DNA from: Candidatus Bipolaricaulota bacterium
GTDB taxonomy: Bacteria > Bipolaricaulota > Bipolaricaulia > UBA7950 > UBA9294
Reading direction: 5' to 3'
Assembly: GCA_030606565.1 (NCBI GenBank)
Contig: JAUWGE010000002.1
Span: forward strand, 100,107-137,781
DNA: 37,675 nt
Part shown: in pieces, positions 5,160 through 27,218 of the stretch
How positions within the stretch are numbered: the stretch's first letter is position 1
Layout: every line of letters begins with the position of its first letter
Made by a program: the position numbers and the translations under genes
The notes under the pieces: model-generated
Seen by the model: the letters and a program-made list of their open reading frames with translations, nothing else
The model's database searches: none
Told to the model about the DNA's origin: nothing

Positions 5160-5184
5160 AAGTAGCGATGAGGTGAGTTTGACT

Positions 5185-6474
5185 GTGTCAGCCGGCGCAC
5201 AGATTGCGCTATTGGTCTTTTTAGTTGCTTGTTCTGCATACTTCTCCAGCGCGGAAACTGCCATCACCTCGCTCGACGAGGGACGCCTGCGTTATCTGAT
5301 CAACGCCCACAAGAAGAAGCGTCGCGGGCTCTTGCTCCTTCTTAAGGAGCCAAATGATCTGATCACCGCGCTTCTGATCCTGAACAACCTCACCAACGTT
5401 GCGGCAAGCTCGCTAATGACCTTAATCGCGGTGCGCTTCCTCGCGCGAGGACTCCCGAGCTACCAAGCGGGCTTACTGGCAACCGGGGTCATGACCATAT
5501 CGCTCCTCATCTTCAGCGAGATCACACCGAAGAACTTCGCCAAGCACAACGCTGAGCGGTTTACGTTAGCCACGATCAACCATGTCTACGCCTTCACCCG
5601 CGTGCTGCGGCCGTTGATCGTCATCTTCCGCGCGATTGCCTACGGAATCATGCGGCTGTTCGGAGAGGATCTGGCGCAGGAGGAACCGTATGCGGTGAGC
5701 GATGAGCAGATCGAAACCCTAATTGACGCCAGCGAAGAGAGCGGCCTGCTCGACGCGCAGGACGGGGAAATGATCCGCCGTATCCTTGACTTTGATCAGA
5801 TGACCGCTGAGCAGGTGATGGTCCCCCGCCCTGATCTCCAGTCGATCGAGGTGAGGACCTCCCCAGCGAAAGCGCGGCAGATCGTCGCTAAGGACGGTCA
5901 CTCCCGCTTCCCTGTCTACGATCGCGTCCCGGACAACGTCGTCGGGACACTGTACGCTAAAGACCTGCTTGCTCAAGTCGATAGCCCTCGCACTACGCTG
6001 CACGAGTTGTTGCGCCCGGTATACTACACCCCGACGACCAAGCCTATCAACGTGCTTTTGCGTGAGTTCCAGCGGGAGCGGGTGCATATGGCAGTGGTAA
6101 TCGACGAGTTCGGTGGCATGGCAGGGATCCTCACCCTGGAAGACATCCTGGAGGAGATCGTGGGAGAGATCGAAGACGAATACGATCGGCCGGCAGCTTT
6201 GATCAAGCGGATCTCAAGCGACGAGGCGATAGTCGACGGTGACACCTCCGTACACCACCTGAACAGGGCCATGGACATAGACCTCCCCGAGGACGAAGGG
6301 GTAACGGTGAGCGGCTTGATCCTTCACCGCCTGGAAGCGATGCCAAAGGTCGGTGACAATGTGGCGGTCGGTCCGGTCAAGCTTAAAGTGGAAGGGGCGA
6401 CGCAGCGAGAAATCACCTCGGTGCGGGTGACGGTCGACCGCACCAGCGACGACGCGGAAGAAGCTATCTTATAG
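5185..6474 (+). CDS. CNNM/CorC-type membrane protein (DUF21, CBS pair, CorC_HlyC domain)
   Basis: An inner-membrane protein of the family often annotated hemolysin C or CorC, linked to magnesium/cobalt transport or ion homeostasis. The N-terminal DUF21 region of about 190 residues has three or four hydrophobic segments and ACSAYFSSAETAITSL, the family hallmark. It is followed by a CBS-domain pair (about 200-330, with VMVPRPDLQSIE and GHSRFPVYDRVPDNVVG) and a C-terminal CorC_HlyC domain (VVIDEFGGMAGILTLEDILEEIVGEIEDE, abridged here by its key residues DEFGG and EDILEE). The start is either GTG 5173 or GTG 5185; I prefer 5185 because AGGTGA lies seven bases upstream. The peptidase gene follows after 23 bases. 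Confidence 0.93.
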   Translation: MSAGAQIALLVFLVACSAYFSSAETAITSLDEGRLRYLINAHKKKRRGLLLLLKEPNDLITALLILNNLTNVAASSLMTLIAVRFLARGLPSYQAGLLATGVMTISLLIFSEITPKNFAKHNAERFTLATINHVYAFTRVLRPLIVIFRAIAYGIMRLFGEDLAQEEPYAVSDEQIETLIDASEESGLLDAQDGEMIRRILDFDQMTAEQVMVPRPDLQSIEVRTSPAKARQIVAKDGHSRFPVYDRVPDNVVGTLYAKDLLAQVDSPRTTLHELLRPVYYTPTTKPINVLLREFQRERVHMAVVIDEFGGMAGILTLEDILEEIVGEIEDEYDRPAALIKRISSDEAIVDGDTSVHHLNRAMDIDLPEDEGVTVSGLILHRLEAMPKVGDNVAVGPVKLKVEGATQREITSVRVTVDRTSDDAEEAIL

Positions 6475-6497: not shown

Positions 6498-9263
6498 ATG
6501 AACAAGGGTCCAATGGGCATCACCTTACTTATCTTATCGGCTCTGTTGTTGCTTCCTTTCTCCAGTGTAGCTTCAAGAGGGACGAGCACCGCGATTGAGG
6601 TAAACTTCGACCCGCAACAGCGAACTCTGCGCGGGGTAGAGGAGATCACGTTCGAAGCACAATCGACGTGCGCCTACTTCCTCCTGCTTGCCAACCTCGA
6701 GAGGGAGAAAAATCCCTTCTTTAACGATCGGGTTATCGACGCAAGGTACAAATTCGGTTTCGAGCCAGCCTCGACAACGATTGAGGCGGTCGAGGCCGTT
6801 CAGAGCGAGGGGGCGGTCGCACTCGGGTTCCGTCTCCTTACACTCCCGCCGGCGCTTCAGACTTACTCGCTTCATGAAACGATCCTTGCGGTCGATCTCA
6901 CCCAGACAGGTAAGAACGTGGCTCTGCGCGTTCATTTCACCACTCAGATCCCACGTCTCACCACGGGGGATCAGGAAATCAACCAGGGGATCCTCACTTG
7001 GCGCTTCGGGTGGTACCCGCTACTACTTCCGCGGCAGGGAGAGTGGGTTGAGGAAGACGGAGTACTGCAGTTGAGATCGGGGGAGGCTTTCCCTTTAGAG
7101 ATCCCCGCCTCCGACTACTCTGCGCGAATCGGCCTTCCTCAAGGGTTCGTGCTCGTCTGCGGGGCTGACCATGTGGAGAAGATTGAAGCCGAGGAACCGA
7201 CTAACGAAGGAGAAGATACACTTGTACGCTACCGGGCGTGGAACGACACCCCTACCCGCACCCTCGCCCTCACCGCCGGGCCGGACTACGAACGCTTCTC
7301 TCTCGGCGAGCTTCCTATACCAATCGAGGTTTTATTCCTCCCCGGACACGAGGAGACAGCACGCCTCTTCGCAACCTACGCACAGGATATCCTTGCAGAC
7401 TACCAGAAGCGGTTCGGCTCCTACCCACGAGCGAGGCTCACTATCGTTGAGAACCCAAATCGAAATGGCCTTTCCATGGCCGCCGACGGGATCATCTGGC
7501 TGTCGAGCCTCTTCTTCACCCACCGCAATGTCACCCTCCCCGGTATCCTCAACCGCTACTGCGAGTTCGTCCTTGCCCACGAGATCGCCCACCAGTGGTG
7601 GGGACTTGCCACGGGTGTGGACCTAAACGCAGAGAACTGGCTCTCCGAGGGAATGGCCCAGTACCTGGCGGTGAGCTACTTCGAAGAGCGCTACGGGGAA
7701 TTCGGGCCAAACGCGTTCGAACTTCCCGGTAAGGGAATCTTGGAAAACCTCATCCGTTCCCAATTTGGGTTTTTGAACCTGCGCGAGCACCAGATCGAAC
7801 TTGCCTATCTCTACCAAGCGATGCGCGGCTTCGACGAGGCGATCATCAAGCCCAACTCGGAGGTTGCCTACGAGAATGCCACGGCGGTGAGGTTGTACGA
7901 CAAGGGCTACTTGGTGGCACGAGCGATCGCCGCAGAAATAGGTAAAAAGACCTTTGAGGCAGGGTTGCGCGAGGCAACAGAGTGCTTCCGCTACAAGATC
8001 ATCAACGTCGATGATCTGCGTGGGACCCTTGAGAAGACTGCGGGGCGATCCCTTAAAGAACTTTTTCAGGTGTGGCTTTTTCAATCAGGATCAGTAGACT
8101 ACGCGATTAAGATCGCTTCCCGTAAGCGAACTGAGATGGGCTATCGGACCGAAGTTAAGGTAAGCCGCGACGGCGGAGCGATCCAGTCGGTGACAATCGA
8201 GGCAACACTGCGCTCCGGGAAAACGGTACGCCAAGAATGGGACGGTGTGACTAAGACGGATACCGTGGTCTTCGAGACAGAGAAGCCAATCCATCGGGTA
8301 ACGATCGACCCCGACCACCTCCTCCCCGATCGCGATCGACTGAACAACAACGCGCCGGTAAAGTTCGTAACGGTCACCGACAAAAACGCATTCCCCCTCG
8401 ACGCCTATCTCGTGCGGCCAGATCCCTTCTCCAAGGGGGTGACGATTACCTACCTTGACCGCTTGCGCCTGACGCTTGCGGAGGCCGCGGTCTCCGCGGA
8501 AGTCTTTAAGGGACGCAATCACCATCTCTCCCTTACTGCGAAGATCGAGGAGGGAGACCTTTTGGGATCGATCGGCTATACGTTCACCACCTTTGCTAGA
8601 GCCCCGATCGGCTCACCAGGGACGTTCTGGGAACCGGCCACCTCGATCACCCTCTGTGCTCATCGCCTCGTTCCACAAGAGGGGCCACTCGTCTACCTTC
8701 ACCTAGGTGTGCGAGAACACCCCTCGATTCAGCATAGCTGGTCAAGCGTGGTAGCCGTCGACATAACCCCCTCTGGGGCTGGACGGATGTCGATCACTGC
8801 CTTCGATGAGACGCGGCTTCTCCCAAAAGTCTACCTTCAAGGGAACCTCACCGTCGGGGTGGGCTTCGGTGAGGTTCCACGTCCTTTATTATTCGACCTT
8901 GAGGAGCTTTTAAGCTTCGGGCTGATGAGTCAGGGAAGATGGGTCCCCACTTCCTTTCTTGGTAGTAATAAGCTCTACGGTCGCCTCGCGGTCGAGTTTC
9001 CTTCCTCAACTGAGGAGCCATTCAACCTTGCTAACCTGATGATGGTCGACCGGACGCGTGGACGCGTCTTCCTCGCCTGTGGAACGAGTTGGAAAAGCCT
9101 CGATGAATTTGGTAAAACTGCCCCTAACATTGAGGCCGGAGTGGAAGCACTGTTCGACCTCTCCGCGATCGGCGGTCTCCTCGCAGCAAGAGCAGTGGCT
9201 GGCTATGCTACCCCGATTCTAGGGGAGGGAGTGGGGGTCTTTTACTTTGGCTTCTCTTTATAA
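6498..9263 (+). CDS. Secreted M1-type zinc metallopeptidase with probable C-terminal beta-barrel
   Basis: A 921-residue exported gluzincin. A signal peptide is clear at residues 1-30 (hydrophobic core LLILSALLLLPF). The zinc site is HEIAHQWWG at 361-369 (H361, E362, H365), with the third ligand E384 in NWLSEGMAQYL; the 18-residue spacing is that of family M1. The exopeptidase GAMEN motif is not obvious, so aminopeptidase activity is uncertain. After about residue 560 the sequence leaves the peptidase fold. The last 250-300 residues alternate polar and hydrophobic residues and end GVGVFYFGFSL, like the final strand of an outer-membrane barrel of the BamA/D15 type. That barrel is inference. I start at ATG 6498, which has GGAGGAG just upstream; a TTG at 6486 lies in that ribosome site. 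The gene is 23 bases after the CorC-type gene. Confidence 0.85.
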   Translation: MNKGPMGITLLILSALLLLPFSSVASRGTSTAIEVNFDPQQRTLRGVEEITFEAQSTCAYFLLLANLEREKNPFFNDRVIDARYKFGFEPASTTIEAVEAVQSEGAVALGFRLLTLPPALQTYSLHETILAVDLTQTGKNVALRVHFTTQIPRLTTGDQEINQGILTWRFGWYPLLLPRQGEWVEEDGVLQLRSGEAFPLEIPASDYSARIGLPQGFVLVCGADHVEKIEAEEPTNEGEDTLVRYRAWNDTPTRTLALTAGPDYERFSLGELPIPIEVLFLPGHEETARLFATYAQDILADYQKRFGSYPRARLTIVENPNRNGLSMAADGIIWLSSLFFTHRNVTLPGILNRYCEFVLAHEIAHQWWGLATGVDLNAENWLSEGMAQYLAVSYFEERYGEFGPNAFELPGKGILENLIRSQFGFLNLREHQIELAYLYQAMRGFDEAIIKPNSEVAYENATAVRLYDKGYLVARAIAAEIGKKTFEAGLREATECFRYKIINVDDLRGTLEKTAGRSLKELFQVWLFQSGSVDYAIKIASRKRTEMGYRTEVKVSRDGGAIQSVTIEATLRSGKTVRQEWDGVTKTDTVVFETEKPIHRVTIDPDHLLPDRDRLNNNAPVKFVTVTDKNAFPLDAYLVRPDPFSKGVTITYLDRLRLTLAEAAVSAEVFKGRNHHLSLTAKIEEGDLLGSIGYTFTTFARAPIGSPGTFWEPATSITLCAHRLVPQEGPLVYLHLGVREHPSIQHSWSSVVAVDITPSGAGRMSITAFDETRLLPKVYLQGNLTVGVGFGEVPRPLLFDLEELLSFGLMSQGRWVPTSFLGSNKLYGRLAVEFPSSTEEPFNLANLMMVDRTRGRVFLACGTSWKSLDEFGKTAPNIEAGVEALFDLSAIGGLLAARAVAGYATPILGEGVGVFYFGFSL

Positions 9264-9284
9264 GGCTAGAAGCTGAGGTGCGTG

Positions 9285-11654
9285 ATGAAGGTACCGTGTC
9301 GATGGCTAGCTGAGTACGTTGATATCGAGGTGAGCAAGGAGGAAGTCGCGCGTCTCGCCGAACGTCTCACCCTGGCTGGCCTTGAGGTGGAGGGGATCAC
9401 CCCTACAGGGAGGGTGCACGGGGCCGTGGTCGGCCGCGTCCTCTCTCACCGTCCTCACCCCAACTCCGATCGCCTCTCCCTCTGCCTGGTCGATATTGGA
9501 ACCGGTGAGGTCGAGGTCGTCTGTGGAGCAGCGAACGTGGTGGCCGGAGCGACCGTCCCGGTAGTCACAGTCGGAGGAGAGCTTCCCGGAGGCTTAAAAG
9601 TCAAGGCCCGAAAGGTCCGCGGCATCGCCTCGCATGGGATGATCTGTTCCAGGGCTGAGCTCGGTCTAGAGACCAGTTCCACCGGAATCTGGAACCTCGA
9701 GACTGATCTGAAACTGGTTCCGGGGATCGAGCTGAACGATCTGTTAGAATTTGACGACTACGTTCTTGACGTAAAAGTGACCTCAAACCGGCCTGACTGC
9801 ATGGGAATTTATGGGATCGCCCGTGAGGTTGCCGCGATCATAAACCGACCCTTGCGGCCGCTCGGAATCGATCTCTGTGAGTCCGAACCACCAACGGAAG
9901 AACTCTTCGCAATTAAGGTGGAAAATGCGACTGATACCCCTCGCTATAGTGCCCGCTTGATGAGCAATCTTATAATAGGACCTTCCCCCCTCCGCATGCA
10001 GCACCGCCTACTAAAAGCGGGGATGCGTCCCCTTCTAAATGTGGTCGATGTGACAAACTACGTGATGCTCGAACTCGGGCAACCGCTTCACCCGTTCGAC
10101 GCCGATCTAGTAGGCAAGCGAATCCTGGTGCGCCGTGCACGCGCTGGGGAGCGCTTCTGCACCCTTGATGGGGTAGAGCGCTCTCTCTCAGAGGAGGTAC
10201 TGATGATCACTGACTCCGACGGGGGACTGGCGATCGCAGGGGTGATGGGGGGTGAGCGGAGCGAGATTAAAGAGGGGACAACACGCGTCCTCCTCGAGGC
10301 GGCTGCCTTTGACCCGATCGCTGTCCGCCACTCGGCTCGATCGGTTGGGATCCGCAGCGAGGCCTCACAACGCTTCGAGCGCGGTGTTGACCCAGAGGGA
10401 ATCCCGCAGGCGGCGGCGCGCACGGCGCAGCTCCTGCAGGAGTTGACCGGCTGCCAGGTTCATCGAGGAATGGTCGATTCTCACCTAAAAGTGCGCAAGC
10501 GAACGACAATCCGGCTTCGTCCTTCCCGGTTAAGGGCGCTCCTCGGGATCGACCTTAACCGCTCACAAGTAACCGAGATCCTCAAACGACTCAAGATCGA
10601 AGTCTCAGAGAGCGAAAATGATCTTATCGCAACTGTACCCACCTTCCGGGCCGACCTCACACGCGAGGTTGACCTGATCGAAGAGGTTGGCCGCATCCAC
10701 GGATACGACCGGCTTCCCTCCACTCCACCCCAGGCGCGCCTACAGATGGGGGAAAAGGACCCAATGGAACTTTATAAGGACCGCGTGCGAACGATCCTCA
10801 CCGGGCTTGGGTTAAGCGAGGTGGTGACTGAGGGGTTCGACGAGGCACAGTGGCGGCGTGCCCTTTCTTTACCTGATGAAGACCTGATCGGGATCCGCAA
10901 CCCGATGATCAGTGCCCAGGGAGCACTGCGGGGAAGTCTCCTTCCAGGGATCCTCGCTGTGGTGGAGACAAACATCAATCACCGCGTCGACGGAGGAATG
11001 CTGTTCGAGATAGGGCGGGTCTTCTCCCAGAGTGGAGAAGTGGACTCCCTTGCTGGAGCGCTCTTCGGCCGAACCGGGATCCCTCTGCATGGAAAGGAGG
11101 AATTCGACCTTTTAACAGCCAAGGGGATCCTCGCTAGCCTTAGCGCTTCGCTTAACTTAAAAGAGGTGCACGTCGTCTCCGATGAGGTTCCCCCTTTTCT
11201 CCATCCCGGGCGAGGGGGAAGGATTCTTCTTGACGCAGAGCCTATCGGCCTTCTCGGCGAGGTCGCCCTTAATATCTATGACCTTTTCCCTGCCTGTCCG
11301 CGGGTGATCCTATTCGAGCTCGATATTGAGAAGCTCTATCAGCGTGACAGAGGGTGGCGGATGTTCACCCCGCTTCCTCGCTTCCCTGCCTGCAAGCGAG
11401 ATCTCTGTCTCCTTGTGCCGATCAACCTGCCCGAAAAGGAGGTCCGCAAAGCGATACGCACTGAGGCAGAGATCGAACACGCCCTGCTGTACGACCTCTA
11501 CCAGGGAGAACAGGTTGCTTCGGGATACAAGAGCCTTACTTACGAGGTATCGTTGCGGGCGATGGACCGTACGTTGACCGACGAGGAGGTCGCTACAATC
11601 ATCGCCCGTATCGAAAAGCGCCTGAAGAAACTCGGCGTCTCACTGCGGGTTTAA
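9285..11654 (+). CDS. pheT: Phenylalanyl-tRNA synthetase beta subunit
   Basis: PheT is the beta chain of the (alpha-beta)2 enzyme that charges tRNA-Phe; it edits Tyr-tRNA-Phe. The 789-residue length is normal. Domains in order are the EMAP/tRNA-binding fold (VVGRVLSHRPHPNSDRLSLC, about 45-150), B3/4 with SNRPDCMGIYGIAREV near 165 and the editing region, B5 at about 400-470, the catalytic-like core with EEVGRIHGYDRLP, and a C-terminal ferredoxin-like anticodon-binding domain (FTPLPRFPACKRDLCLLV). The ATG at 9285 follows GAGGTG; a GTG one codon earlier is possible. The alpha-subunit gene pheS, usually adjacent, is absent here. Confidence 0.96.
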   Translation: MKVPCRWLAEYVDIEVSKEEVARLAERLTLAGLEVEGITPTGRVHGAVVGRVLSHRPHPNSDRLSLCLVDIGTGEVEVVCGAANVVAGATVPVVTVGGELPGGLKVKARKVRGIASHGMICSRAELGLETSSTGIWNLETDLKLVPGIELNDLLEFDDYVLDVKVTSNRPDCMGIYGIAREVAAIINRPLRPLGIDLCESEPPTEELFAIKVENATDTPRYSARLMSNLIIGPSPLRMQHRLLKAGMRPLLNVVDVTNYVMLELGQPLHPFDADLVGKRILVRRARAGERFCTLDGVERSLSEEVLMITDSDGGLAIAGVMGGERSEIKEGTTRVLLEAAAFDPIAVRHSARSVGIRSEASQRFERGVDPEGIPQAAARTAQLLQELTGCQVHRGMVDSHLKVRKRTTIRLRPSRLRALLGIDLNRSQVTEILKRLKIEVSESENDLIATVPTFRADLTREVDLIEEVGRIHGYDRLPSTPPQARLQMGEKDPMELYKDRVRTILTGLGLSEVVTEGFDEAQWRRALSLPDEDLIGIRNPMISAQGALRGSLLPGILAVVETNINHRVDGGMLFEIGRVFSQSGEVDSLAGALFGRTGIPLHGKEEFDLLTAKGILASLSASLNLKEVHVVSDEVPPFLHPGRGGRILLDAEPIGLLGEVALNIYDLFPACPRVILFELDIEKLYQRDRGWRMFTPLPRFPACKRDLCLLVPINLPEKEVRKAIRTEAEIEHALLYDLYQGEQVASGYKSLTYEVSLRAMDRTLTDEEVATIIARIEKRLKKLGVSLRV

Positions 11655-17581: not shown

Positions 17582-18175
17582 GTGAAAATTGCTGTAGCCA
17601 CAACACAGGGTGGATTGGAGGATGTTGTCTCTCAAGTCTTCGGCCGCTGCCCTACTTTCACTCTGGTGGATGTTGAGAACGGGAAGGTCGTCTCCCACGA
17701 GGTAGTTCAAAACCCCTATGTCAGCGCGATGGGTGGGGCCGGGATCCAGGCGGCGCAGCTTGTCATCTCCAAGGGTGCACAGGCGATCCTCGCCGGCGCG
17801 TTCGGCCCGAATGCTTCAAACGTCTTTTCCCAGGGGGGTGTGCAAACGATTCCCGCCCAAGGGACTGTGAAAGAAAAAGTCCTCGAGTTTGCTGCGGGAC
17901 GGCTCGCCCCGGCTGCCGGTCCTACCGCGGCGGCGTTCGCGGGTCGGGGCATGGGGACCGGAGGTGGGATGGGAATGGGACGCGGGATGGGAATGGGACG
18001 CGGGATGGGAATGGGACGTGGCATGGGAATGCCTGGCATGCCCATGTCAACTCCGCCGGCTGCCCCGCCTCCATCGATGGAGGCGATGGCCACCTTGACC
18101 GAACAGCTACGCTCACTTACGCTCAAGCTACAACAGCTAAACGAGCGCATCGATGCACTCGAAAGGAAGGAATAA
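17582..18175 (+). CDS. NifX-like protein with GMGMGR repeats and C-terminal coiled coil
   Basis: A 197-residue protein in three parts. Residues 1-115 are a dinitrogenase iron-molybdenum cofactor domain (NifX/NafY fold): MKIAVATTQGGLEDVVSQVF at the start, FGRCPTFTLVDVENG, ILAGAFGPNASNVF. Next comes a Gly/Met/Arg segment with three exact GMGMGR units. The last 40 residues are a coiled coil (TEQLRSLTLKLQQLNERIDA) like that of the DUF5320-type neighbours. Proteins with this domain bind metal-sulfur clusters, as in NifB/NifX and the Mo-Cu orange protein of Desulfovibrio. The GTG start has AAGGAGG six bases upstream. Fusion of the NifX fold to the coiled coil suggests docking to the same partners. 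Confidence 0.87.
   Translation: MKIAVATTQGGLEDVVSQVFGRCPTFTLVDVENGKVVSHEVVQNPYVSAMGGAGIQAAQLVISKGAQAILAGAFGPNASNVFSQGGVQTIPAQGTVKEKVLEFAAGRLAPAAGPTAAAFAGRGMGTGGGMGMGRGMGMGRGMGMGRGMGMPGMPMSTPPAAPPPSMEAMATLTEQLRSLTLKLQQLNERIDALERKE
17966..18019 (+). repeat. Three 18-base tandem repeats inside the NifX-like gene
   Basis: The unit GGGATGGGAATGGGACGC occurs three times without a gap (17966, 17984, 18002; the last differs only at its final base). A partial fourth copy follows. It codes for GMGMGR units and could vary in number by slippage. Confidence 0.9.
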
Positions 18176-18178
18176 GAA

Positions 18179-18541
18179 ATGAGAGTTTGCATCACTTCGG
18201 ATGGACAGGGACTTGACGCGCCGGTCAATCCAAGCTTCGGGCGAGCACCCTATTTTCTATTTGTCGATCCCGAGACACTCACCACAGAAGGCGTGAAAAA
18301 TACTCCCGGTGCCCATGGTGCCGGCGTGCAAGCGGCCCAGACCGTCGTGTCGAAGGGCGCGAACATTGTGATCACCGGGAACGTTGGACCAAACGCCCAT
18401 CAGGGTCTTAGCACAGCTGGGATCGAGATCTATGTCGGAGCAAAGGGCACGGTTAAGGACGCACTTCAAGACTACCGCGCTGGCCGCCTCACCCGCGCCG
18501 ATGCTCCCACAGCAGGGGGGCATGGAAGGAGGATGATATGA
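18179..18541 (+). CDS. NifX-like metal-cluster-binding protein
   Basis: A 120-residue protein consisting mainly of one NifX/NafY-type domain: MRVCITSDGQGLDAPVNPSF, then FGRAPYFLFVDPE, GVQAAQTVVSKGANIVITG and NVGPNAHQGL. The family binds Fe-Mo, Mo-Cu or other metal-sulfur clusters during their assembly or transfer. It starts only three bases after the previous stop and ends in an ATGA overlap with the next gene, so the three NifX-like proteins are made together. It has a single cysteine near the N-terminus, so any cluster would have to be held non-covalently or by other residues. Confidence 0.9.
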   Translation: MRVCITSDGQGLDAPVNPSFGRAPYFLFVDPETLTTEGVKNTPGAHGAGVQAAQTVVSKGANIVITGNVGPNAHQGLSTAGIEIYVGAKGTVKDALQDYRAGRLTRADAPTAGGHGRRMI

Positions 18542-18912
18542 GCAAAGTCTGCGTACCGACCGCGGGAAGCGGTGGCCTAGACGACCTGGTCGGCGAGCAC
18601 TTCGGCCGCGTCCCAACCTACACGATCTATGACTCCGATACCGGTACGGTAGAGGTGGTCGATAATACCTCTGAGCACATGGGCGGAAGAGGACTTCCAG
18701 GCTCAATCCTAGCCAACCTGGGGATCGACGTTCTTTTGTGCAGCGGCCTCGGCCGTCGGGCGATCGGAATCCTAAACCAAAACGGGATCGAAGTCTGCGC
18801 CGGCGTTTCCGGGACAGCACGCGCGGCGATCGAGGCGTGGAAGGGAGGGAGTCTCTCGAAAGCCTCAGATAAAGACGCCTGCCAGAAACACGCGTTCCGC
18901 GATCGCCATTGA
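18538..18912 (+). CDS. NifX-like metal-cluster-binding protein, second short paralogue
   Basis: A 124-residue NifX/NafY-type protein: MSKVCVPTAGSGGLDDLVGE, HFGRVPTYTIYDSDTG, ILANLGIDVLLCSGLGRRAI. It differs from its neighbours in the GPNA-type loop, which here reads LGRRAIGILNQNGIEV, and it has four cysteines, one of them in the core strand LLCSGLG. It overlaps the previous gene by four bases and the next by one (TGATG). The C-terminal DACQKHAFRDRH is polar with Cys and His and might add metal ligands; that is a guess. Confidence 0.88.
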   Translation: MSKVCVPTAGSGGLDDLVGEHFGRVPTYTIYDSDTGTVEVVDNTSEHMGGRGLPGSILANLGIDVLLCSGLGRRAIGILNQNGIEVCAGVSGTARAAIEAWKGGSLSKASDKDACQKHAFRDRH

Positions 18913-19898
18913 TGCGTATCGCCATCGCCAGCGGAAAGGGCGGAACCGGTAAGACGACCATTGCCGTTAACCTGGCTCTCTCCCTTGTCGAACGAGAATC
19001 GGTCCAGTTCATCGACTGTGATGTCGAGGAGCCAAACGCCCACATTTTTTTAAAACCTCGCATTAAGCACGTACATTCGGTGGGAAAGCTCCTTCCAGAG
19101 GTGGATGAATCCCTGTGCAATCAGTGCGGGGAGTGTGCCAAGGCCTGCGAGTTTAACGCCATCGCCGTCATCGGAAAGAAGGTATTGGTCTATAACGAAC
19201 TCTGTCACGGCTGCGGGTTGTGCAAGATGGTCTGCCCAACCGGGGCGATAAGCGAGGTCCCACACGAACTCGGGGTCGTAGAATCAGGGGAAGCACGCGG
19301 ATTTCCCTTCTCTCGCGGGCTACTCAACATCGGCGAGGCTATGGCGACCCCGCTTGTCCACACATTGAAGGAAGGGCTTGATCCTGACCGTCTGGCGATC
19401 CTCGACGCACCGCCGGGGACCGGGTGTCCAACGATCGCTGCACTGCACGGGGCCGATGTCGCGCTGCTGGTCACCGAGCCGACCCCGTTTGGCCTGCACG
19501 ACCTCAAAGCCGCGGTGGGGGTCGCCCGCTCATTGGGCGTACCGATCGCCGTAGTGATCAATCGCAACGGGATCGGTGATGATCAAATAGAGCGCTACTG
19601 CAAACAGGAGGGGCTACCGATCCACTTAAAGATCTCGTTTGACCGTGAGATCGCCGTGCTTTACTCGGAGGGGACCCCACTCGTCGACGCCCTTCCGGCC
19701 TGGAAGGAGCGGTTCATCCACCTCTACCATGAAATCATCTCGCAGGCGGGCGAAGGCGCTGCCTCCGTAGCGTCGGGCTTCATGCCCGACGATCTGAACA
19801 AACGTCGCACACAAGGTGCGACGCTACACGCTGCCGAGGACGTTCCCGCAGTGGACATCGGGCCGAATGAGGGGCCCCAAAAAGGAGAGGCGGGATGA
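18912..19898 (+). CDS. MinD-superfamily P-loop ATPase with inserted ferredoxin domain, first copy
   Basis: A 328-residue ParA/MinD/NifH-type ATPase. The deviant Walker A is SGKGGTGKTT (7-16), and DCDVEEPNAH follows. A 2x[4Fe-4S] ferredoxin domain is inserted, with cysteines 69/72/75/79 and 98/101/104/108. Switch II is APPGTGCP. Such paired ATPases are part of the orange-protein (ORP) system of Desulfovibrio and are thought to load or move metal clusters. The ATG at 18912 overlaps the previous stop (TGATG). The gene carries an odd tail: residues of about 285-307 (SVASGFMPDDLNKRRTQGAT and three more) are the translation of a REP-like repeat at 19767-19827, so the native protein probably ended near residue 280. 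It overlaps the next gene in ATGA. Confidence 0.92.
   Translation: MRIAIASGKGGTGKTTIAVNLALSLVERESVQFIDCDVEEPNAHIFLKPRIKHVHSVGKLLPEVDESLCNQCGECAKACEFNAIAVIGKKVLVYNELCHGCGLCKMVCPTGAISEVPHELGVVESGEARGFPFSRGLLNIGEAMATPLVHTLKEGLDPDRLAILDAPPGTGCPTIAALHGADVALLVTEPTPFGLHDLKAAVGVARSLGVPIAVVINRNGIGDDQIERYCKQEGLPIHLKISFDREIAVLYSEGTPLVDALPAWKERFIHLYHEIISQAGEGAASVASGFMPDDLNKRRTQGATLHAAEDVPAVDIGPNEGPQKGEAG
19767..19827. repeat. REP-like hairpin repeat, copy A2, inside a coding region
   Basis: The ends GTAGCGTCG (19767-19775) and CGACGCTAC (19819-19827) are perfect inverted repeats. Inside are two hairpins: GTCGGGC-TTCAT-GCCCGAC and GTCGCAC-ACAAG-GTGCGAC. The element is 61 bases long and sits in the last tenth of the first MinD-type gene, in frame. 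Confidence 0.85.
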
Positions 19899-20755
19899 AG
19901 AGCGTTCTCTTCCTTTCGGGAAAAGGGGGGACCGGGAAGACCTCCCTCGCCGGGGCGTTCGCCTTCTTGGCGAAGGAGAAGGTCCTCGCCGACTGCGACG
20001 TCGACGCGGCGAACCTACACCTCTTGCTCGATCCAAAGATCACCTCGGAGGGAAACTTTCAAGGAATCAAACTCGCCGTTAAAGACGATGAGAAGTGCAC
20101 CTCCTGTGGCAAGTGCCGCGAGGTCTGCCGCTTTCAGGCAATCGACGAGAACTTTACCATCGATTCCTATATGTGCGAGGGGTGCGGGGCCTGTGCATAC
20201 GTCTGCCCGGTCGATGCGATCACCCTCCTGCTGGTCGATTGCGGGCGCTGGTACACCGCGCAGAGCAGGCTTGGCCCACTTGCGAGCGCCGAGCTCTATC
20301 CAGGAGAGGAGACCTCAGGGAAGCTCGTCTCTCTGGTCAAGGAGAAGGCGGCCGGACTAGCTAAAGAGACAAAAGTAGAAGCCCTGTTGATCGACGGGGC
20401 CCCTGGGATTGGTTGCCCGGTGATCGCCTCGGTGAGGGGGGTAAGTGCGGTCATCCTCGTCACCGAGCCAAGCCTCTCCGGGTTGCACGACTTAAAACGG
20501 ATCCTCGGGGTGGTCCGTCACTTTGGGATTCCGGCCTACCTCGTCATCAACAAGGCTGACATAAACGAGAAAGTTTCAGAAAAGATCGAGGCGTTCGCCG
20601 CGCAGGAGCAGCTCCCGGTGCTCGGACGGATTCCCCATGACCGAAAAGTAACCGAGATGATGGTCGTTGGAAAAAGCGCCGTCGAGGATGCGGAAAGTCC
20701 TGCCGGAGCGGCGATGAGCGTGGTTTTTGAGCGTTTTACGGAGGTCTTTTTATGA
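19895..20755 (+). CDS. MinD-superfamily P-loop ATPase with inserted ferredoxin domain, second copy
   Basis: A 286-residue paralogue of the preceding gene. The Walker A is SGKGGTGKTS (8-17), followed by DCDVDAANLH. The two ferredoxin motifs have cysteines 68/71/74/78 and 94/97/100/104, and switch II is GAPGIGCPV. LLVDCGRWYTAQSRLGPLAS, after the second motif, is characteristic of this family. It has no repeat-derived tail and ends at TEVFL. Both ends overlap neighbours by ATGA, so the two ATPases are probably made in equal amounts and may form a heterodimer, as proposed for ORP-type pairs. A signalling or transport role cannot be excluded. Confidence 0.93.
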   Translation: MKSVLFLSGKGGTGKTSLAGAFAFLAKEKVLADCDVDAANLHLLLDPKITSEGNFQGIKLAVKDDEKCTSCGKCREVCRFQAIDENFTIDSYMCEGCGACAYVCPVDAITLLLVDCGRWYTAQSRLGPLASAELYPGEETSGKLVSLVKEKAAGLAKETKVEALLIDGAPGIGCPVIASVRGVSAVILVTEPSLSGLHDLKRILGVVRHFGIPAYLVINKADINEKVSEKIEAFAAQEQLPVLGRIPHDRKVTEMMVVGKSAVEDAESPAGAAMSVVFERFTEVFL

Positions 20756-21486
20756 TCATTGATGACCTGTTGGCGGAGGCCAGGCCAAAGCTAGCGGACC
20801 TGGTGATCACCGATGTGCGGATCGGCCTGGGATACACCGCTTTATTGCTTGACGATGGGGGCTGTGGCCTTTCAGGGACGGTGAGCGAGGGTGCGCAGGG
20901 TTGCTGCACCCTTCTAGCTCAGGCGGGGGAGCTGATCGGCAAGCCAGCCTTGGAGGTGGCGGAATACGCGGCCTCGTCTGACCCGGTTTCCTCTTCTGTT
21001 GGACTCGCAACGATTAACGCCGTCCTAAACCGGCAGGGAGAATCAGGACAAAGTCCGCTTGAGCTGCTACCGATCGACAACGCACGGGTGGGAATGGTAG
21101 GCTACTTTGAGCCATTCATTCCGGAACTCCGTCGGCGATCGAGTACGTTGTACATCTTCGAGCGGCGGCCCCTCTCCGAGGAGGTTCTTCCCGATTGGTC
21201 GGCCGAGCGGCTCCTCCCTACCTGCGATGTTGCGATCATCACCTCACTAACGCTCGTCAATGATACTCTCGACCATCTGTTAAAACTCGCGCAGGGTGAG
21301 GTCGCCTTGGTCGGACCGACGACACCGCTGTCGCGGGTCTTCGCAAGCCATGGGGTATCGCATCTTTTTGCCACAGTGGTTACCGATCCGCAGAGGATTA
21401 TGACCATAATCAGCCAGGCCGGGGGACCGCAGCGGTTTAAGGATGCGGTGAGAAAAGTCTATCTGCAACTTAAACAAGATAAATAA
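20752..21486 (+). CDS. DUF364-domain protein (putative heavy-metal chelation)
   Basis: A 244-residue protein of the DUF4213/DUF364 type. The N-terminal half shows DVRIGLGYTALLLDDGGCGL and EVAEYAASSDPVSSSVGLATINAVL. The C-terminal Rossmann-like DUF364 half has NARVGMVGYFEPFIPELRRR, CDVAIITSLTLVNDTLDHLL and GPTTPLSRVF. The fold of a homologue suggested chelation of a metal or metal-bearing cofactor, but no activity is proven to my knowledge. The gene overlaps the second MinD ATPase by ATGA and is thus the last of a coupled set of six genes. Confidence 0.88.
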   Translation: MIIDDLLAEARPKLADLVITDVRIGLGYTALLLDDGGCGLSGTVSEGAQGCCTLLAQAGELIGKPALEVAEYAASSDPVSSSVGLATINAVLNRQGESGQSPLELLPIDNARVGMVGYFEPFIPELRRRSSTLYIFERRPLSEEVLPDWSAERLLPTCDVAIITSLTLVNDTLDHLLKLAQGEVALVGPTTPLSRVFASHGVSHLFATVVTDPQRIMTIISQAGGPQRFKDAVRKVYLQLKQDK

Positions 21487-21498
21487 AAGGAGGTCACT

Positions 21499-21726
21499 AT
21501 GCCACGTGGAGATGGAACAGGCCCAGCGGGAGCTGGTCAAGGAACAGGAATGGGCCAAGGCCGCGGAGGTCAGGGTCGTGGACGAATGGGAGGAAACCGC
21601 GCTGGCGCCGGACCGTCCGGCTACTGCGTTTGCCCAAACTGCGGAGAGAAGATCGCCCACCGCGTTGGAACTCCCTGTAACCAGATGAGTTGCCCCAAGT
21701 GCGGAACGAACCTCATGCGCGCGTGA
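21499..21726 (+). CDS. Small Gly-rich protein with four-cysteine zinc-ribbon/rubredoxin-like domain
   Basis: A 75-residue protein. The N-terminus (MPRGDGTGPAGAGQGTGMGQ) is the DUF5320-type motif followed by a Gly/Arg-rich linker. The C-terminus is a compact metal site: CVCPNCGEKIAHRVGTPCNQ, then MSCPKCGTNLMR, giving two CPxCG knuckles plus two further cysteines. Proteins like this accompany NifX/MinD clusters in anaerobes. The metal (Zn or Fe) cannot be told from sequence. The ribosome site AAAGGAGG is strong, 12 bases after the previous stop. Confidence 0.85.
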   Translation: MPRGDGTGPAGAGQGTGMGQGRGGQGRGRMGGNRAGAGPSGYCVCPNCGEKIAHRVGTPCNQMSCPKCGTNLMRA

Positions 21727-21844
21727 GGTTCTAGTAAAGAATCCCGCAGCAAGCTAAAGGGGCATTGAAGAGCAGAACCTTAACGACCTAACCAGAGTTG
21801 GTCTTCATGCTGCAATTTGCTGTAGAGCTCTGTCTCATTGCAAG

Positions 21845-21990
21845 GAACGTCGCACACCTGTCTGCCCTGGTGACGCGACAGGCAGGCAAGGTACGACGCT
21901 ACAAAAACGGATGTAGTGTCGGAGTTTATCTCCGACGTTGGTCGGAGCTCGTCTGCCTGTGCCGGAACGGCAGACAGGTCTCCGACATTG
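21845..21990. repeat. REP-like hairpin repeat, copy A3
   Basis: This is the main content of the 382-base gap between the zinc-ribbon gene and the DUF89 gene; no further gene is visible there. From 21845 it follows the layout of the repeat at 15642: GAACGTCG, a CCTGTCTGCC/GGCAGGCA arm, then the hairpin GTCGGAG-TTTAT-CTCCGAC (21918-21936). The hairpin differs from copy A1 at paired positions, so pairing is kept. A further inverted repeat GTCTGCC (21951) / GGCAGAC (21969) follows. Confidence 0.8.
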
Positions 21991-22108
21991 AGGGATTTAT
22001 CCTTAAGAGAACTCATGCAGCCAGTACGAACAACAGGCCAATTCGCCTGCGGCGAATCTCCGCTTTCCTCCCAGAAGCAAGCCTAAGGGTACAAAGCGGA
22101 GGCTCTTT

Positions 22109-22960
22109 ATGAAGGTTTACCTCGATTGTATCCCCTGTTTCATGCGGCAAGCGCTTGCAGCGGCAAGGCAAGCAACAGAGGATAAAAAGCAGCAGCGCGA
22201 GGTATTAGACACGGTTGCGTCACTCATCCCCACTCTGCCGCTTGACGCTACCCCGGTCGATATGGGAAGGAAGATCCACAGGGTAGTTAAAGAGGTTACC
22301 AGGACTCTTGATCCCTATCGGGAGATAAAGAGACAATGTAACGATCACGCTCTTAAACTTAGTTCTCAATTTCGCAAACGCGTAGACGCGTCCTGCGATC
22401 CACTGCTTGCCGCGCTCAAGCTTGCGGCAGCGAGCAACGTTATCGACTTTGCGGTAACTTTGGACTTTGACCTCAATCGCTCGATTGAGGAGAGCTTGAC
22501 GAATGACCTCGACCTGGTCGACTACTCCTTTTTGAAGGAGCGGCTCGAATCCGTCAAAGAGGTCCTCTATATCGGCGACAATGCGGGGGAGATCGTCTTT
22601 GACAGGATCGTCGTTGAGCAGTTGAACAAACTAGGAAAGAAGATCACTTTCGTCGTGCGGAGAGAGCCGATCATCAACGATGTAACGATCGAGGATGCTT
22701 CCTATGTGGGAATGGATAAGATTGCAAAAGTTATCACCAGCGGGTCTGACGCACCGGGGACGAGCCTCCGTTACTGCACGGAGGAGTTCATCGACACCTT
22801 TAACCATTCAAAGTTAATCCTCGCCAAAGGACAGGGGAACTTCGAGGGATTGTCCGATGAGGACGCGCCGCTATTCTTCCTCCTTAAGGTGAAGTGTCCG
22901 GTGGTCGCACGCGAGCTCAACACTACGCTAGGGAAGATCGTTCTTCGTGCAGGTGAATAG
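22109..22960 (+). CDS. DUF89 (ARMT1-like/damage-control phosphatase-like) protein
   Basis: A 283-residue protein of the DUF89 family, whose members are metal-dependent phosphatases acting on damaged or surplus phosphometabolites. It has the N-terminal DCIPCFMRQALAAAR typical of the bacterial/archaeal subgroup I, the metal-site strand VLYIGDNAGEIVFDR, and LILAKGQGNFEGLSDED. Its substrate is unknown. It opens a tightly packed set that runs to 28528, with gaps of 12 bases or less. The ribosome site is a modest GGAGG seven bases before the ATG. Cysteines near the start (C8, C11) could bind metal. Confidence 0.9.
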   Translation: MKVYLDCIPCFMRQALAAARQATEDKKQQREVLDTVASLIPTLPLDATPVDMGRKIHRVVKEVTRTLDPYREIKRQCNDHALKLSSQFRKRVDASCDPLLAALKLAAASNVIDFAVTLDFDLNRSIEESLTNDLDLVDYSFLKERLESVKEVLYIGDNAGEIVFDRIVVEQLNKLGKKITFVVRREPIINDVTIEDASYVGMDKIAKVITSGSDAPGTSLRYCTEEFIDTFNHSKLILAKGQGNFEGLSDEDAPLFFLLKVKCPVVARELNTTLGKIVLRAGE

Positions 22961-23620
22961 ATGATCAAAGAAAACGTGAAGAAAATCCTGAGCGAGATCC
23001 CTTCAGATATCGCGCTTGTCGCCGCAGCGAAGACGCGGAACCCACAGGAGATCCTACGAGCGATCGAGGCCGGAGTCACAATCATCGGGGAGAATTACGT
23101 TAAAGAAGCGCAAAGCGCATTCGCCGTCATTGGCAACCGCTGTCGGTGGCACTTTATCGGCCACCTGCAGCGAAACAAAGTCAAGGTTGCTGTTGAGATC
23201 TTCGATCTGATCGAGACCGTGGATTCACTCCCTCTGGCAGTTGAGATCGACAAGCGTTGCTCCCGAATCGGGAAGGTCATGCCGGTGTTGATCGAGATAA
23301 ACAGCGGCCGCGAGCCGCAGAAGACGGGCGTCTTCCCTGAAGAGGCGGAGGGGCTGATCAAAGAGATTACCCCGCTAAAACATATGCGGATCATGGGATT
23401 GATGACGATGGGCCCAAGGTTCGGTGACCCCGAGAAGGCACGGCCCTACTTCGTGGAGACAAGACGGCTGTTCGAGGAGGTACAGGATCTGGAACTTCCC
23501 GGTCTTGAGATGAAGGTTCTCTCTATGGGGATGTCAAACACCTATAAAATAGCGATCGAAGAAGGGGCAACCATCGTGCGCGTGGGCACAAAGCTATTCG
23601 GAGAGAGGGACTATACATGA
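22961..23620 (+). CDS. YggS/PLPBP-family pyridoxal-phosphate homeostasis protein
   Basis: A 219-residue PLP-binding TIM-barrel protein without known catalysis, needed for B6 and amino-acid balance in other bacteria. The PLP lysine is K24 in LVAAAKTR; GENYVKEAQ, WHFIGHLQRNKVK, MGLMTMGP and LSMGMSNTYKIAIEEGATIV are all family motifs. Its ATG directly follows the DUF89 stop, and its own stop overlaps the Mrp start in ATGA. In the SxDxxxAI motif the usual Asp is Asn (SNTYKIAI), a variation of unknown effect. The sequence fits the expected length. Confidence 0.94.
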   Translation: MIKENVKKILSEIPSDIALVAAAKTRNPQEILRAIEAGVTIIGENYVKEAQSAFAVIGNRCRWHFIGHLQRNKVKVAVEIFDLIETVDSLPLAVEIDKRCSRIGKVMPVLIEINSGREPQKTGVFPEEAEGLIKEITPLKHMRIMGLMTMGPRFGDPEKARPYFVETRRLFEEVQDLELPGLEMKVLSMGMSNTYKIAIEEGATIVRVGTKLFGERDYT

Positions 23621-24450
23621 ATCAGCAGGAACAGATAAAAAAGCAGATGGAGAAGACCGCGCAAGGGATTAAGCAGGCGATGGGCCAGATCAAGAATCGC
23701 GTGGTCGTGTTCAGCGGCAAGGGCGGCGTCGGGAAGACGACCGTGGCGGTGAACCTCGCCTATGCGTTGGCGAACAATGGAGCGCGAGTAGGCCTGCTCG
23801 ACGCTGATATCACCGGACCGAACGTCCCGCAGATGGTGGGGATCACCGAGACGGCACAGGCCGAGGCGGGGAGGATGATCCCCCACGTGGTACAAGGGAT
23901 CAAGGTGATCTCTTTAGCCTCGATCGTACCAGCCGGAACCCCGGTCATCTGGCGCGGACCGCTGCGCTCCAAGGCGATCGATCAATTCCTCGGGGAGGCG
24001 AGATGGGGAGCCCTTGACTTCTTAATCGCCGATCTTCCCCCGGGTACAGGAGATGAGGTACTGACGATCACACAACGCACTTCTCCACAGATGGCAATCA
24101 TTGTCACCACCCCGCAGGAGGTCGCCCTGATCGACGCCCGTCGAGCCACGAACCTGGCAAAGAAGATGGAAATCGAGAGGATCGGGATTGTGGAGAACAT
24201 GTCCGGCCTCATCTGCCCACACTGTGGAGGGGTGATCGACCTCTTCGGCGCGGGTGGCGGCGAACGGGAAGCAAAGAAGCTTTCTCTGCTCTTTCTCGGA
24301 AAGATCCCCATCGATCCTAGTGTGCGGGTGGAGGCGGACGCGGGGCGGCCGATCGTCCTTGCGAACCCTGAAGCTACAGTCTCACAGGCATTTTTCGCCA
24401 TCGCCACGCAGATCGAACGCGCCCTTAAAGACGCCCCCAAGGAGGAGTGA
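23617..24450 (+). CDS. Mrp/NBP35-family iron-sulfur cluster carrier ATPase
   Basis: A 277-residue ParA-like ATPase of the ApbC/Mrp/Nbp35 type that carries and transfers [4Fe-4S] clusters. The deviant Walker A SGKGGVGKTT is at 33-42; DADITGPNVPQMVG and LIADLPPGTGDEVLT follow. The bridging cluster motif CPHC is at 200-203. There is no N-terminal MIP18 (DUF59) domain; instead there are about 27 residues rich in Gln and Lys. Mrp is also part of the Desulfovibrio ORP gene set. Overlaps of ATGA at the start and TGATG at the end tie it to its neighbours. Confidence 0.95.
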   Translation: MNQQEQIKKQMEKTAQGIKQAMGQIKNRVVVFSGKGGVGKTTVAVNLAYALANNGARVGLLDADITGPNVPQMVGITETAQAEAGRMIPHVVQGIKVISLASIVPAGTPVIWRGPLRSKAIDQFLGEARWGALDFLIADLPPGTGDEVLTITQRTSPQMAIIVTTPQEVALIDARRATNLAKKMEIERIGIVENMSGLICPHCGGVIDLFGAGGGEREAKKLSLLFLGKIPIDPSVRVEADAGRPIVLANPEATVSQAFFAIATQIERALKDAPKEE

Positions 24451-24932
24451 TGAAGGTCGGGATCATGGCCGACAGTCACGATAACATGCCGATGATCGCC
24501 CGCGCGGTCGAACTGTTCAACGAGGAGAAAGTGGAACTGGTCCTCCACGCTGGCGATTTCATCTCCCCGATCACCGCAAATGAGTTTAAAAAACTCAAAG
24601 CGCCCCTTATCGGCATCTTTGGAAATAACGACGGGGACAGGCTTTATCTCACCGAATGCTTCCGCGATATTGGGGAACTTTATCCGGATTTCCATGAGTT
24701 CGAGATCGACAGCGACCGCTTCGTGATCATGCACGAGCCAAAATTTATCGACGCCCTGATCAAAAGCCGACATTACGACCTCGTGGTCTACGGGCATACC
24801 CATAACATCGACATCCGGGAAGGGAAGCCTTTGATCATCAACCCCGGAGAGTGCGGCGGCTGGCTCACCGGTCGGGCGACCGTAGTGATCCTGGATACTG
24901 AGACCATGCAACCCCGTCTCATCGATCTCTAA
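24450..24932 (+). CDS. YfcE/MJ0936-type metallophosphodiesterase
   Basis: A 160-residue calcineurin-like phosphoesterase. The metal ligands are visible in IMADSHDN, LHAGDF, GNNDGD, MHEP and YGHTHN, all in family order and spacing. YfcE-like enzymes hydrolyse phosphodiesters using Mn or similar metals; the natural substrate is generally unknown. ATG 24450 overlaps the Mrp stop and has AAGGAGG seven bases upstream. The GTG at 24447 lies within that region and is less likely. A long open frame on the opposite strand covers this gene and the end of Mrp but shows no family resemblance. Confidence 0.93.
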   Translation: MKVGIMADSHDNMPMIARAVELFNEEKVELVLHAGDFISPITANEFKKLKAPLIGIFGNNDGDRLYLTECFRDIGELYPDFHEFEIDSDRFVIMHEPKFIDALIKSRHYDLVVYGHTHNIDIREGKPLIINPGECGGWLTGRATVVILDTETMQPRLIDL

Positions 24933-24944
24933 AGGAGAAACGAG

Positions 24945-25904
24945 ATGAACATCGTCTATGGGCCGGTGCCATCGCGGCGCCTGGGCATGTCCCTTGGAAT
25001 CGATCCGATCCCTAAGCTCACTTGTACCTTCGACTGCGTCTACTGTCAGCTCGGCAAAAAGCGCCATAAGGTACGGGGTCCAGAGGAGGTGAAAGAGCCG
25101 TTTCCCACCCCACAGGAGATCACCGCCGGGGTGGAGGCAGCCCTTGCGGAACATTCCCACGTTGACTACATCACCTTTTCCGGCTCTGGTGAACCGACGC
25201 TGAACCCGAGACTCAAGGAAGCGGTGGAAGAGATCCGCAGATTTACCAAAGCCCCTATTGCCTTAATTACTAATTCATCCCTTCTCACCCGCCCCGCCGT
25301 TCTGGACGCGGCAGCAAGCTTTGATCTTGTCTTACCCTCACTCGATGCTGGCGATCAGGAAACGTTCCTGCGGATCAACCGACCTTCACCTGGTTTTTCT
25401 ATCGATGAGATCGCAAAAGCGATCGAAAAGCTTGCCCGACGCGTTCCAATCTGGCTTGAGGTGATGCTCGTTAAATCAGAAAAGTTACGGACGAACATCG
25501 ACCCTGATTCTATAGGCCACATCATAGAGAAGATCAGGCTCATTCGTCCGCACGAGGTGAACCTGAACACCTGTGTGCGTCCACCGGAAGAACCGGTAGA
25601 CCCCGTCCCCGAAGAAACGTTGCTTAAGATCCGCGAGCGGATGGAAGGTGAGCTTTCAGGGATCCCGATCTTAGTCGTTCCCCAGCGGACGGCTTCGCGC
25701 TCGAGGCTCTTGCGCGAGGATGAACTGAAAGAAGAGATCCTAAAGACACTCAACGTTCGGCCGTGTACCCCTGTTGATCTCTCCGATGCGTTGGGGATCA
25801 ACCCGGCTGAGGTGGGAAAGTACCTGGCGCGGCTCGCTGAGGAGGGAAAAATCGACCGCCGCGTTCAAGCAGGCCAGCTATACTACACATTCAAGGGGGA
25901 ATAA
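24945..25904 (+). CDS. Radical SAM protein with C-terminal winged helix
   Basis: A 319-residue radical SAM enzyme. The cluster motif CTFDCVYCQLG (CxxxCxxC) is at about residues 28-38, preceded by GPVPSRRLGMSLGID, a hallmark of the COG0731-like family. TFSGSGEPTLNP and LITNSSLL are the SAM-binding strands. After about residue 245, a helical domain (LNVRPCTPVDLSDALGINPA, VGKYLARLAEEGKIDRR) looks like a winged helix. The family's reactions are mostly unknown. The ribosome site AAAGGAG lies 12 bases after the phosphodiesterase stop. Context suggests a role with the metal-cluster genes, not proven. Confidence 0.9.
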   Translation: MNIVYGPVPSRRLGMSLGIDPIPKLTCTFDCVYCQLGKKRHKVRGPEEVKEPFPTPQEITAGVEAALAEHSHVDYITFSGSGEPTLNPRLKEAVEEIRRFTKAPIALITNSSLLTRPAVLDAAASFDLVLPSLDAGDQETFLRINRPSPGFSIDEIAKAIEKLARRVPIWLEVMLVKSEKLRTNIDPDSIGHIIEKIRLIRPHEVNLNTCVRPPEEPVDPVPEETLLKIRERMEGELSGIPILVVPQRTASRSRLLREDELKEEILKTLNVRPCTPVDLSDALGINPAEVGKYLARLAEEGKIDRRVQAGQLYYTFKGE

Positions 25905-25906
25905 GA

Positions 25907-26614
25907 GTGGGGCGGATCCTGGTCATCTACGATAATCGGACAACAAGGGAAGATCTTACTCCGGGATGGGGTTTCTCCGCGTTCATCGAGCTTCCCGAGA
26001 GGAGGATTTTGTTTGACACCGGGGCAAATGGAAGGACCCTCCTCACCAATATGGAGCGGCTCAAGCTCGACCCAGCAACCATCGATACGGTCTTCCTCTC
26101 CCACCCTCACGGTGACCACACAGGGGGATTGGAGGGCCTACTTCGAGTTAACCCGCGGTTGACGATCTACCTCGGCCGCTCGTTCTCCTGGGGATTCAAG
26201 AAAGCCCTCGAGCGCTCAGGTACAGAACCTGTCGAAATAACCGGGGCGAAACAACTGTTTGACGGCGTCTATACCACCGGTGAACTGGGGGCCGTGCTCA
26301 AGGAGCAAAGCCTCATCATCGAGACGAAAAAGGGCCTTTTTGTCACTACAGGCTGCGCTCACCCCGGGATTGTGAGGATAGCAAAGGCCGCGGCGGAGCA
26401 GTTGAATAAAAAGATCGACCTTCTCCTCGGTGGTTTCCACTTAGGTGGCACCCGTCAAGCTAAGATTTATTCGATTATTGACTCTCTACAGAAGCTTGGA
26501 GTAAGCAGAGTCGGGCCTTGCCACTGCACCGGCGATGGGGCAATCGAGCTTTTCAAAAGGGCCTACAAGGAGGATTTTATCGAGGTGGGAGTCGGTTCAA
26601 GGATCGAGTTTTAA
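25907..26614 (+). CDS. Metallo-beta-lactamase-fold protein (COG1237-like), first copy
   Basis: A 235-residue MBL-fold hydrolase. The dinuclear metal site is visible as SHPHGDHTGG, TGCAHPG and the closing GGFHL; the start MGRILVIYDNRTTREDLTPG, with GWGFSAFIE, is typical of COG1237. Some family members have been assigned to the dihydropterin-ribofuranosylaminobenzene phosphate synthase step of methanopterin synthesis, but annotation of this family is loose. The start is GTG 25907, two bases after the previous stop. It is paralogous to the gene at 27219, and the two flank an unknown secreted protein. Confidence 0.9.
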   Translation: MGRILVIYDNRTTREDLTPGWGFSAFIELPERRILFDTGANGRTLLTNMERLKLDPATIDTVFLSHPHGDHTGGLEGLLRVNPRLTIYLGRSFSWGFKKALERSGTEPVEITGAKQLFDGVYTTGELGAVLKEQSLIIETKKGLFVTTGCAHPGIVRIAKAAAEQLNKKIDLLLGGFHLGGTRQAKIYSIIDSLQKLGVSRVGPCHCTGDGAIELFKRAYKEDFIEVGVGSRIEF

Positions 26615-26626
26615 AGGAGGTGTAAG

Positions 26627-27217: not shown

Positions 27218-27218
27218 C

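Follow-up and report, generated by a model that had tools for sequence, protein, structure and literature searches.

A predicted outer-membrane-anchored M1-type zinc peptidase conserved across Candidatus Bipolaricaulota

The 37,675-nucleotide window analysed here, from a Candidatus Bipolaricaulota genome, contains a gene that joins an M1-type peptidase to a predicted Omp85-like β-barrel. The peptidase part comes first and retains its zinc site, while the GAMEN motif of classical M1 enzymes is lost; the barrel follows, the combination is kept throughout the phylum, and the genome encodes BAM. We consider it likely that the product is anchored in the outer membrane, with its M1 domain in the periplasm, an altered cleavage specificity and a role in envelope turnover.

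The open reading frame (6498-9263, plus strand, as are all features below) is intact, with 921 codons for 921 amino acids, an ATG at 6498, a stop codon at 9261-9263 and a strong ribosome-binding site, GGAGGAG, 5′ of the ATG. It lies 23 bases 3′ of a gene for a CNNM/CorC-type membrane protein (5173-6474; Pfam) and 18 bases 5′ of pheT (9282-11654; Pfam and NCBIfam), both of which are conserved neighbours. A chance reading frame is ruled out by full-length homologues across the phylum, with identities down to about 30%. The N-terminus, MNKGPMGITLLILSALLLLPFSSVAS, reads as a cleavable signal peptide, in agreement with the sequence-only reading that preceded this work; it putatively comprises residues 1-26 (6498-6575), with cleavage after VAS, and is modelled with low pLDDT. 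A lipobox was not seen on reading this N-terminus, and the barrel would be the sole anchor, which fits the earlier description of the protease as self-anchored.

The M1 part extends to residue ~604 and the barrel begins at ~637, giving a strand domain of ~285 residues, so that the division first proposed, an M1-like N-terminal two-thirds and a barrel in the last 250-300 residues, was about right. Pfam assigns residues 298-526 to Peptidase_M1 (PF01433, E 1.3e-16, 61.3 bits against a curated cut-off of 27.7), and the PDB sequence matches are M1 aminopeptidases. A full-chain Foldseek search retrieved ERAP and IRAP with E about 4e-26 over ~620 columns, which correspond to the D1, catalytic and D3 domains. 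These are assigned to residues ~27-204 (D1, a β domain, 6576-7109, with an approximate boundary taken from DSSP), ~205-530 (catalytic, 7110-8087) and ~531-604 (D3, a β-sandwich, 8088-8309), the last with six strands in the model and in the position that D3 occupies in M1 enzymes. A conserved linker, PDHLLPDRDRLNN...PLD (605-636, 8310-8405), connects D3 to the barrel, and D604, P605, D611, R614, N617 and P633 in and beside it are invariant.

The zinc site, earlier described as intact, holds up across 60 aligned homologues. The HEIAH motif (361-365, 7578-7592) provides H361, E362 and H365, the third ligand is E384 (7647-7649) in the HExxH-18-E arrangement, and the catalytic tyrosine is Y467 (LYDKG, 7896-7898); all five residues are invariant, and the zinc chemistry thus looks intact as judged from these residues. 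In M1 aminopeptidases the GAMEN glutamate grips the free N-terminus of the substrate, which makes the classical M1 enzymes aminopeptidases. The equivalent loop here is MAADG (327-331, 7476-7490), in which the AADG string is mostly conserved; the glutamate position (column 328) is Ala, Thr, Ser or Gly in 60/60 homologues, and D330 is kept in 58/60. The suspected absence of GAMEN is therefore borne out, and a GxMEN motif to hold a free N-terminus is found in none of the clade (0/60 with Glu). Because this glutamate is missing throughout, we name the protein an M1-type peptidase, not an aminopeptidase. Its loss probably alters cleavage specificity, perhaps towards endopeptidase activity or substrates with blocked ends. 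The same genome encodes a second, short M1-type protein of 481 residues that has no barrel and reads GVEYPG at the GAMEN site (G000:C51:27051-27464; L002:805-2247).

The C-terminal part was modelled with AlphaFold both in the full chain with 60 natural sequences (mean pLDDT 92.8, pTM 0.91) and as residues 622-921 alone (pLDDT 91.1, pTM 0.82). Beyond residue 620 the models consist almost exclusively of β-strands, which rules out an ARM/HEAT-repeat C-terminus. Sixteen strands were counted in the 622-921 model, the first four of them short; one long loop separates strand 11 from strand 12. All 50 of the listed PDB matches to this domain in Foldseek are Omp85-superfamily barrels, including BamA of several species and E. 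coli TamA; P. aeruginosa TamA is the best among them at E 2.5e-6. Against the barrel of E. coli TamA (4n74), 300 and 314 residues are aligned over 322 columns. With TM-scores of only about 0.5 and an rmsd of 8-9 Å against Omp85 barrels, the barrel is a divergent one. Compared as profiles, the barrel and 21 BamA proteins from this phylum matched with a probability of 91.8 and a pairwise E of 7e-7, the last 230 residues of the M1-barrel profile aligning to the BamA C-terminus and the alignment reaching both C-termini. We thus predict with high confidence that residues ~637-921 (8406-9260) form an Omp85-like β-barrel, which upholds the earlier proposal of a C-terminal barrel.

Were this domain instead soluble and β-rich, the protein would be a soluble M1 enzyme, either secreted or periplasmic. 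This reading draws on the lack of a Pfam match for the domain: no PF01103/Omp85 match appeared at E<=1 among 59 members, and Pfam and PDB sequence searches returned nothing useful, so that sequence families miss the domain. It also draws on hydrophobic alternation, which is no stronger in the predicted barrel strands than in those of the soluble D1; because the measure cannot tell the two apart here, we give it no weight. The predicted structure, however, shows neither the soluble β-sandwich nor the ARM repeats that would have spoken against a barrel, and structure prediction and fold search together reject the sandwich. The uniform Omp85 fold matches, the profile match to BamA and the aromatic β-signal leave a soluble enzyme the least probable of the readings, to which we give almost no credence. 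That signal, GVGVFYFGFSL (911-921, 9228-9260), ends in VFYFGFSL, whose alternating aromatics resemble the outer-membrane β-signal and are kept in most homologues. The protein thus combines a signal peptide, by reading only, with a terminal aromatic β-signal, in a host that has BAM.

The barrel has lost the signatures associated with insertase function. The long loop that follows strand 11 (791-823, 8868-8966) occupies the position of Omp85 loop L6 by strand count and profile alignment, and its motif has decayed: RG(F/Y) is exact in 1/59 M1-barrel proteins, whereas RG is present in 20/21 BamA proteins of the phylum. Likewise, the Asp of FxDxG is found in 0/59 M1-barrel proteins as against 21/21 of these BamA sequences. 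A relic RGF in loop 6 was considered, since Arg is the commonest residue at position 805 (18/59), yet it lies about three residues off the BamA profile register, so we record it without making that claim. Pfam detected no POTRA domain in the protein.

Comparable fusions occur in two other phyla. They were found in five of 64 sampled Latescibacterota genomes (L190-L194) and in about 14 of 59 sampled genomes of one order, the Cytophagales (L195-L204); in a wider sample of the latter's phylum, searched at a strict threshold, the centre genome alone matched. These proteins share the domain order and the outer-membrane-type C-terminus of the Bipolaricaulota protein, whereas most of them keep the M1 glutamate (GMEY/AMEY) that is lost in Bipolaricaulota. 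In contrast to the Bipolaricaulota barrel, the Cytophagales barrels also keep canonical Omp85 motifs: of ten sequences, most show the Omp85 hallmarks GG.(L/M)N(I/L)RG(F/Y) and YLFxDxG-like strings. Despite these motifs, the Cytophagales set has no Pfam Omp85 match; the Latescibacterota protein has a weak one (E 0.011). The Cytophagales proteins are ~1050-1100 residues long, and the genomic match behind one of them (L197) contains one in-frame TAA. Matches of the Bipolaricaulota barrel profile to the Cytophagales and Latescibacterota profiles, built on shallow alignments, were not significant (probability 0.1 and 10). A common origin of the three sets is thus unsupported, and independent origin and deep divergence are both possible.

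The Cytophagales fusions, which mostly retain GG..(I/L)RG(F/Y) and FxDxG, bear on whether the Bipolaricaulota barrel could be a working Omp85-type insertase or translocase, with the M1 domain serving its clients as a dedicated protease for processing or quality control. The fold match to BamA and TamA is compatible with such a function, but both signatures are decayed in Bipolaricaulota, POTRA domains are missing and a separate, complete BamA is present, so we regard this as very unlikely. The most economical reading is that the barrel is a tether from which the motifs linked to insertase activity have disappeared.

The source genome is a 1.8 Mb metagenome-assembled genome in 63 contigs, 91% complete. 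The closest homologous contigs among those with names are labelled Candidatus Bipolaricaulota or Acetothermia, and the host therefore belongs to that phylum. Whole-genome searches found the M1-barrel protein in 59/60 relatives, including 28/28 good genomes. The barrel profile alone matched 94/100 genomes of the phylum and 37/38 good ones, and, barring short, mostly contig-edge fragments, these matches sit in reading frames of M1 length. Among genomes with a readable neighbourhood, most share the order CNNM, M1-barrel, pheT, and many have accB, accC, ffh and trmD on the opposite side. Some relatives carry a second M1-barrel paralogue (~940 residues) outside the pheT neighbourhood, many with a C-terminal Phe (L054-L060). 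The CNNM/CorC-type gene stands beside the M1-barrel gene phylum-wide; a functional link between the two, perhaps through metal supply, is speculative. Elsewhere, the window contains a long same-strand gene cluster (17582-28528) with ferredoxin-type MinD/ParA NTPases (18909-20755), DUF364 (20752-21486), ARMT1-like (22109-22960), NUBPL (23617-24450), radical SAM (24945-25904) and metallo-β-lactamase-fold proteins.

A barrel of this kind implies an outer membrane, as the sequence-only reading had noted, and the genome backs this independently. Its one BamA has POTRA repeats, and the Omp85 barrel of this BamA carries the loop-6 IRG motif and FxDxG; an adjacent OmpH/Skp-like gene and then a fabZ-like gene lie 3′ of bamA. 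In E. coli, skp and fabZ are separated by lpxD, which is absent from this locus. The locus (L154:2021-8971) continues with formiminotransferase, Mur ligase and FtsW/RodA genes, bringing outer-membrane and cell-wall genes together. Omp85 was detected in 52/60 relatives, and the control set gave matches in seven genomes, all of which we take to be diderms. TamB gave no match in the genome, nor in the Thermotoga control. The first closed genome of the phylum has no LPS genes, yet has outer-membrane genes, and its authors found the choice between monoderm and diderm for Acetothermia/Bipolaricaulota hard to make (PMC6092417). According to another paper, the phylum has an outer membrane that is detached at the cell poles (PMC10665443). 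The bamA-ompH/skp-fabZ locus without lpxD agrees with these statements (PMC6092417, PMC10665443) and makes an outer membrane without LPS likely.

In the proposed mechanism, the protein would be exported by Sec, its signal peptide removed and its C-terminal barrel inserted into the outer membrane by BAM. The M1 domain would remain in the periplasm beside the barrel mouth, at the place held by POTRA domains in other Omp85 proteins. This placement is the most likely one by analogy, because the enzyme domain of PlpD is periplasmic and the M1 domain occupies the POTRA place. Retention of the catalytic residues and conservation across the phylum suggest a housekeeping task, which may be constitutive turnover of peptides or proteins at the outer membrane, either as envelope quality control or as trimming of peptides that enter for fermentation.

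The orientation could also be reversed, with the barrel exporting its own N-terminal passenger in an autotransporter or 'type Vd'-like manner, so that a surface-exposed M1 domain digests external protein for fermentation. An N-terminal passenger before a C-terminal barrel is indeed the autotransporter order, the ~30-residue linker could span the barrel, and the first closed genome suggests peptide and amino acid fermentation and encodes just one extracellular protease (PMC6092417). However, PlpD, the prototype of this idea, keeps its enzyme in the periplasm (PMC11116518), the large, compact M1 globule does not resemble β-helical passengers, and the POTRA domains at the N-termini of known Omp85 proteins lie in the periplasm. 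We therefore think surface display unlikely. A bolder reading, which we rate as a rather long shot, would make the protein a phylum-defining peptide-uptake device, in which the degenerate Omp85-like barrel is a channel. Placed at the mouth of that channel, the M1 domain would cut peptides during their passage across the outer membrane, with an altered specificity not directed at amino termini. If true, one protein would couple uptake and digestion in diderm fermenters that lack LPS.

A zinc-dependent peptidase with its own predicted barrel would be a built-in envelope protease, and it adds to the evidence for two membranes. Such a protein, core and syntenic, would have no sensible place in a cell that lacked an outer membrane; together with the bamA locus lacking lpxD, it argues for an outer membrane without LPS. 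The M1-barrel protein is a candidate envelope marker for an uncultured phylum.

Each half of the protein has well-known relatives. With the M1 aminopeptidases ERAP1/2, IRAP and PepN it has in common the D1, catalytic and D3 domains, HExxH-18-E and the catalytic Tyr, whereas it lacks the GAMEN Glu, has a barrel in place of the ARM-repeat D4 and carries a signal peptide. It shares the barrel fold (by Foldseek) with BamA and TamA and, for BamA, profile similarity, but differs in its enzymatic N-terminus, the absence of POTRA domains and the loss of the loop-6 and FxDxG signatures. PF00149 is a metallophosphoesterase-type domain, unrelated to M1. The Omp85 'Metallo' subfamily with a PF00149 domain, described by Heinz and Lithgow (2014, PMC4104836), likewise places an enzyme-like domain on an Omp85 barrel. 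Their paper sets out ten Omp85 architectures; an M1 domain is not mentioned in the passages found, and 'peptidase' as a word is absent from the paper (PMC4104836). Our literature search, with preprints and most subscription papers outside its reach, found no published M1-Omp85 protein, and prior notice of such a fusion elsewhere is possible. The closest parallel is PlpD and the patatin-like Omp85 proteins, formerly assigned to type Vd secretion, which likewise combine an N-terminal enzyme with a C-terminal Omp85-type barrel and, in PlpD, retain the enzyme domain in the periplasm (PMC11116518). In contrast to PlpD, the Bipolaricaulota protein bears an M1 zinc peptidase, not a patatin lipase, has no POTRA domain, shows a decayed loop-6 motif and is phylum-wide. 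A peptidase can thereby be added to the few enzymes that occur in fusion with Omp85-type barrels, and two other phyla offer parallels.
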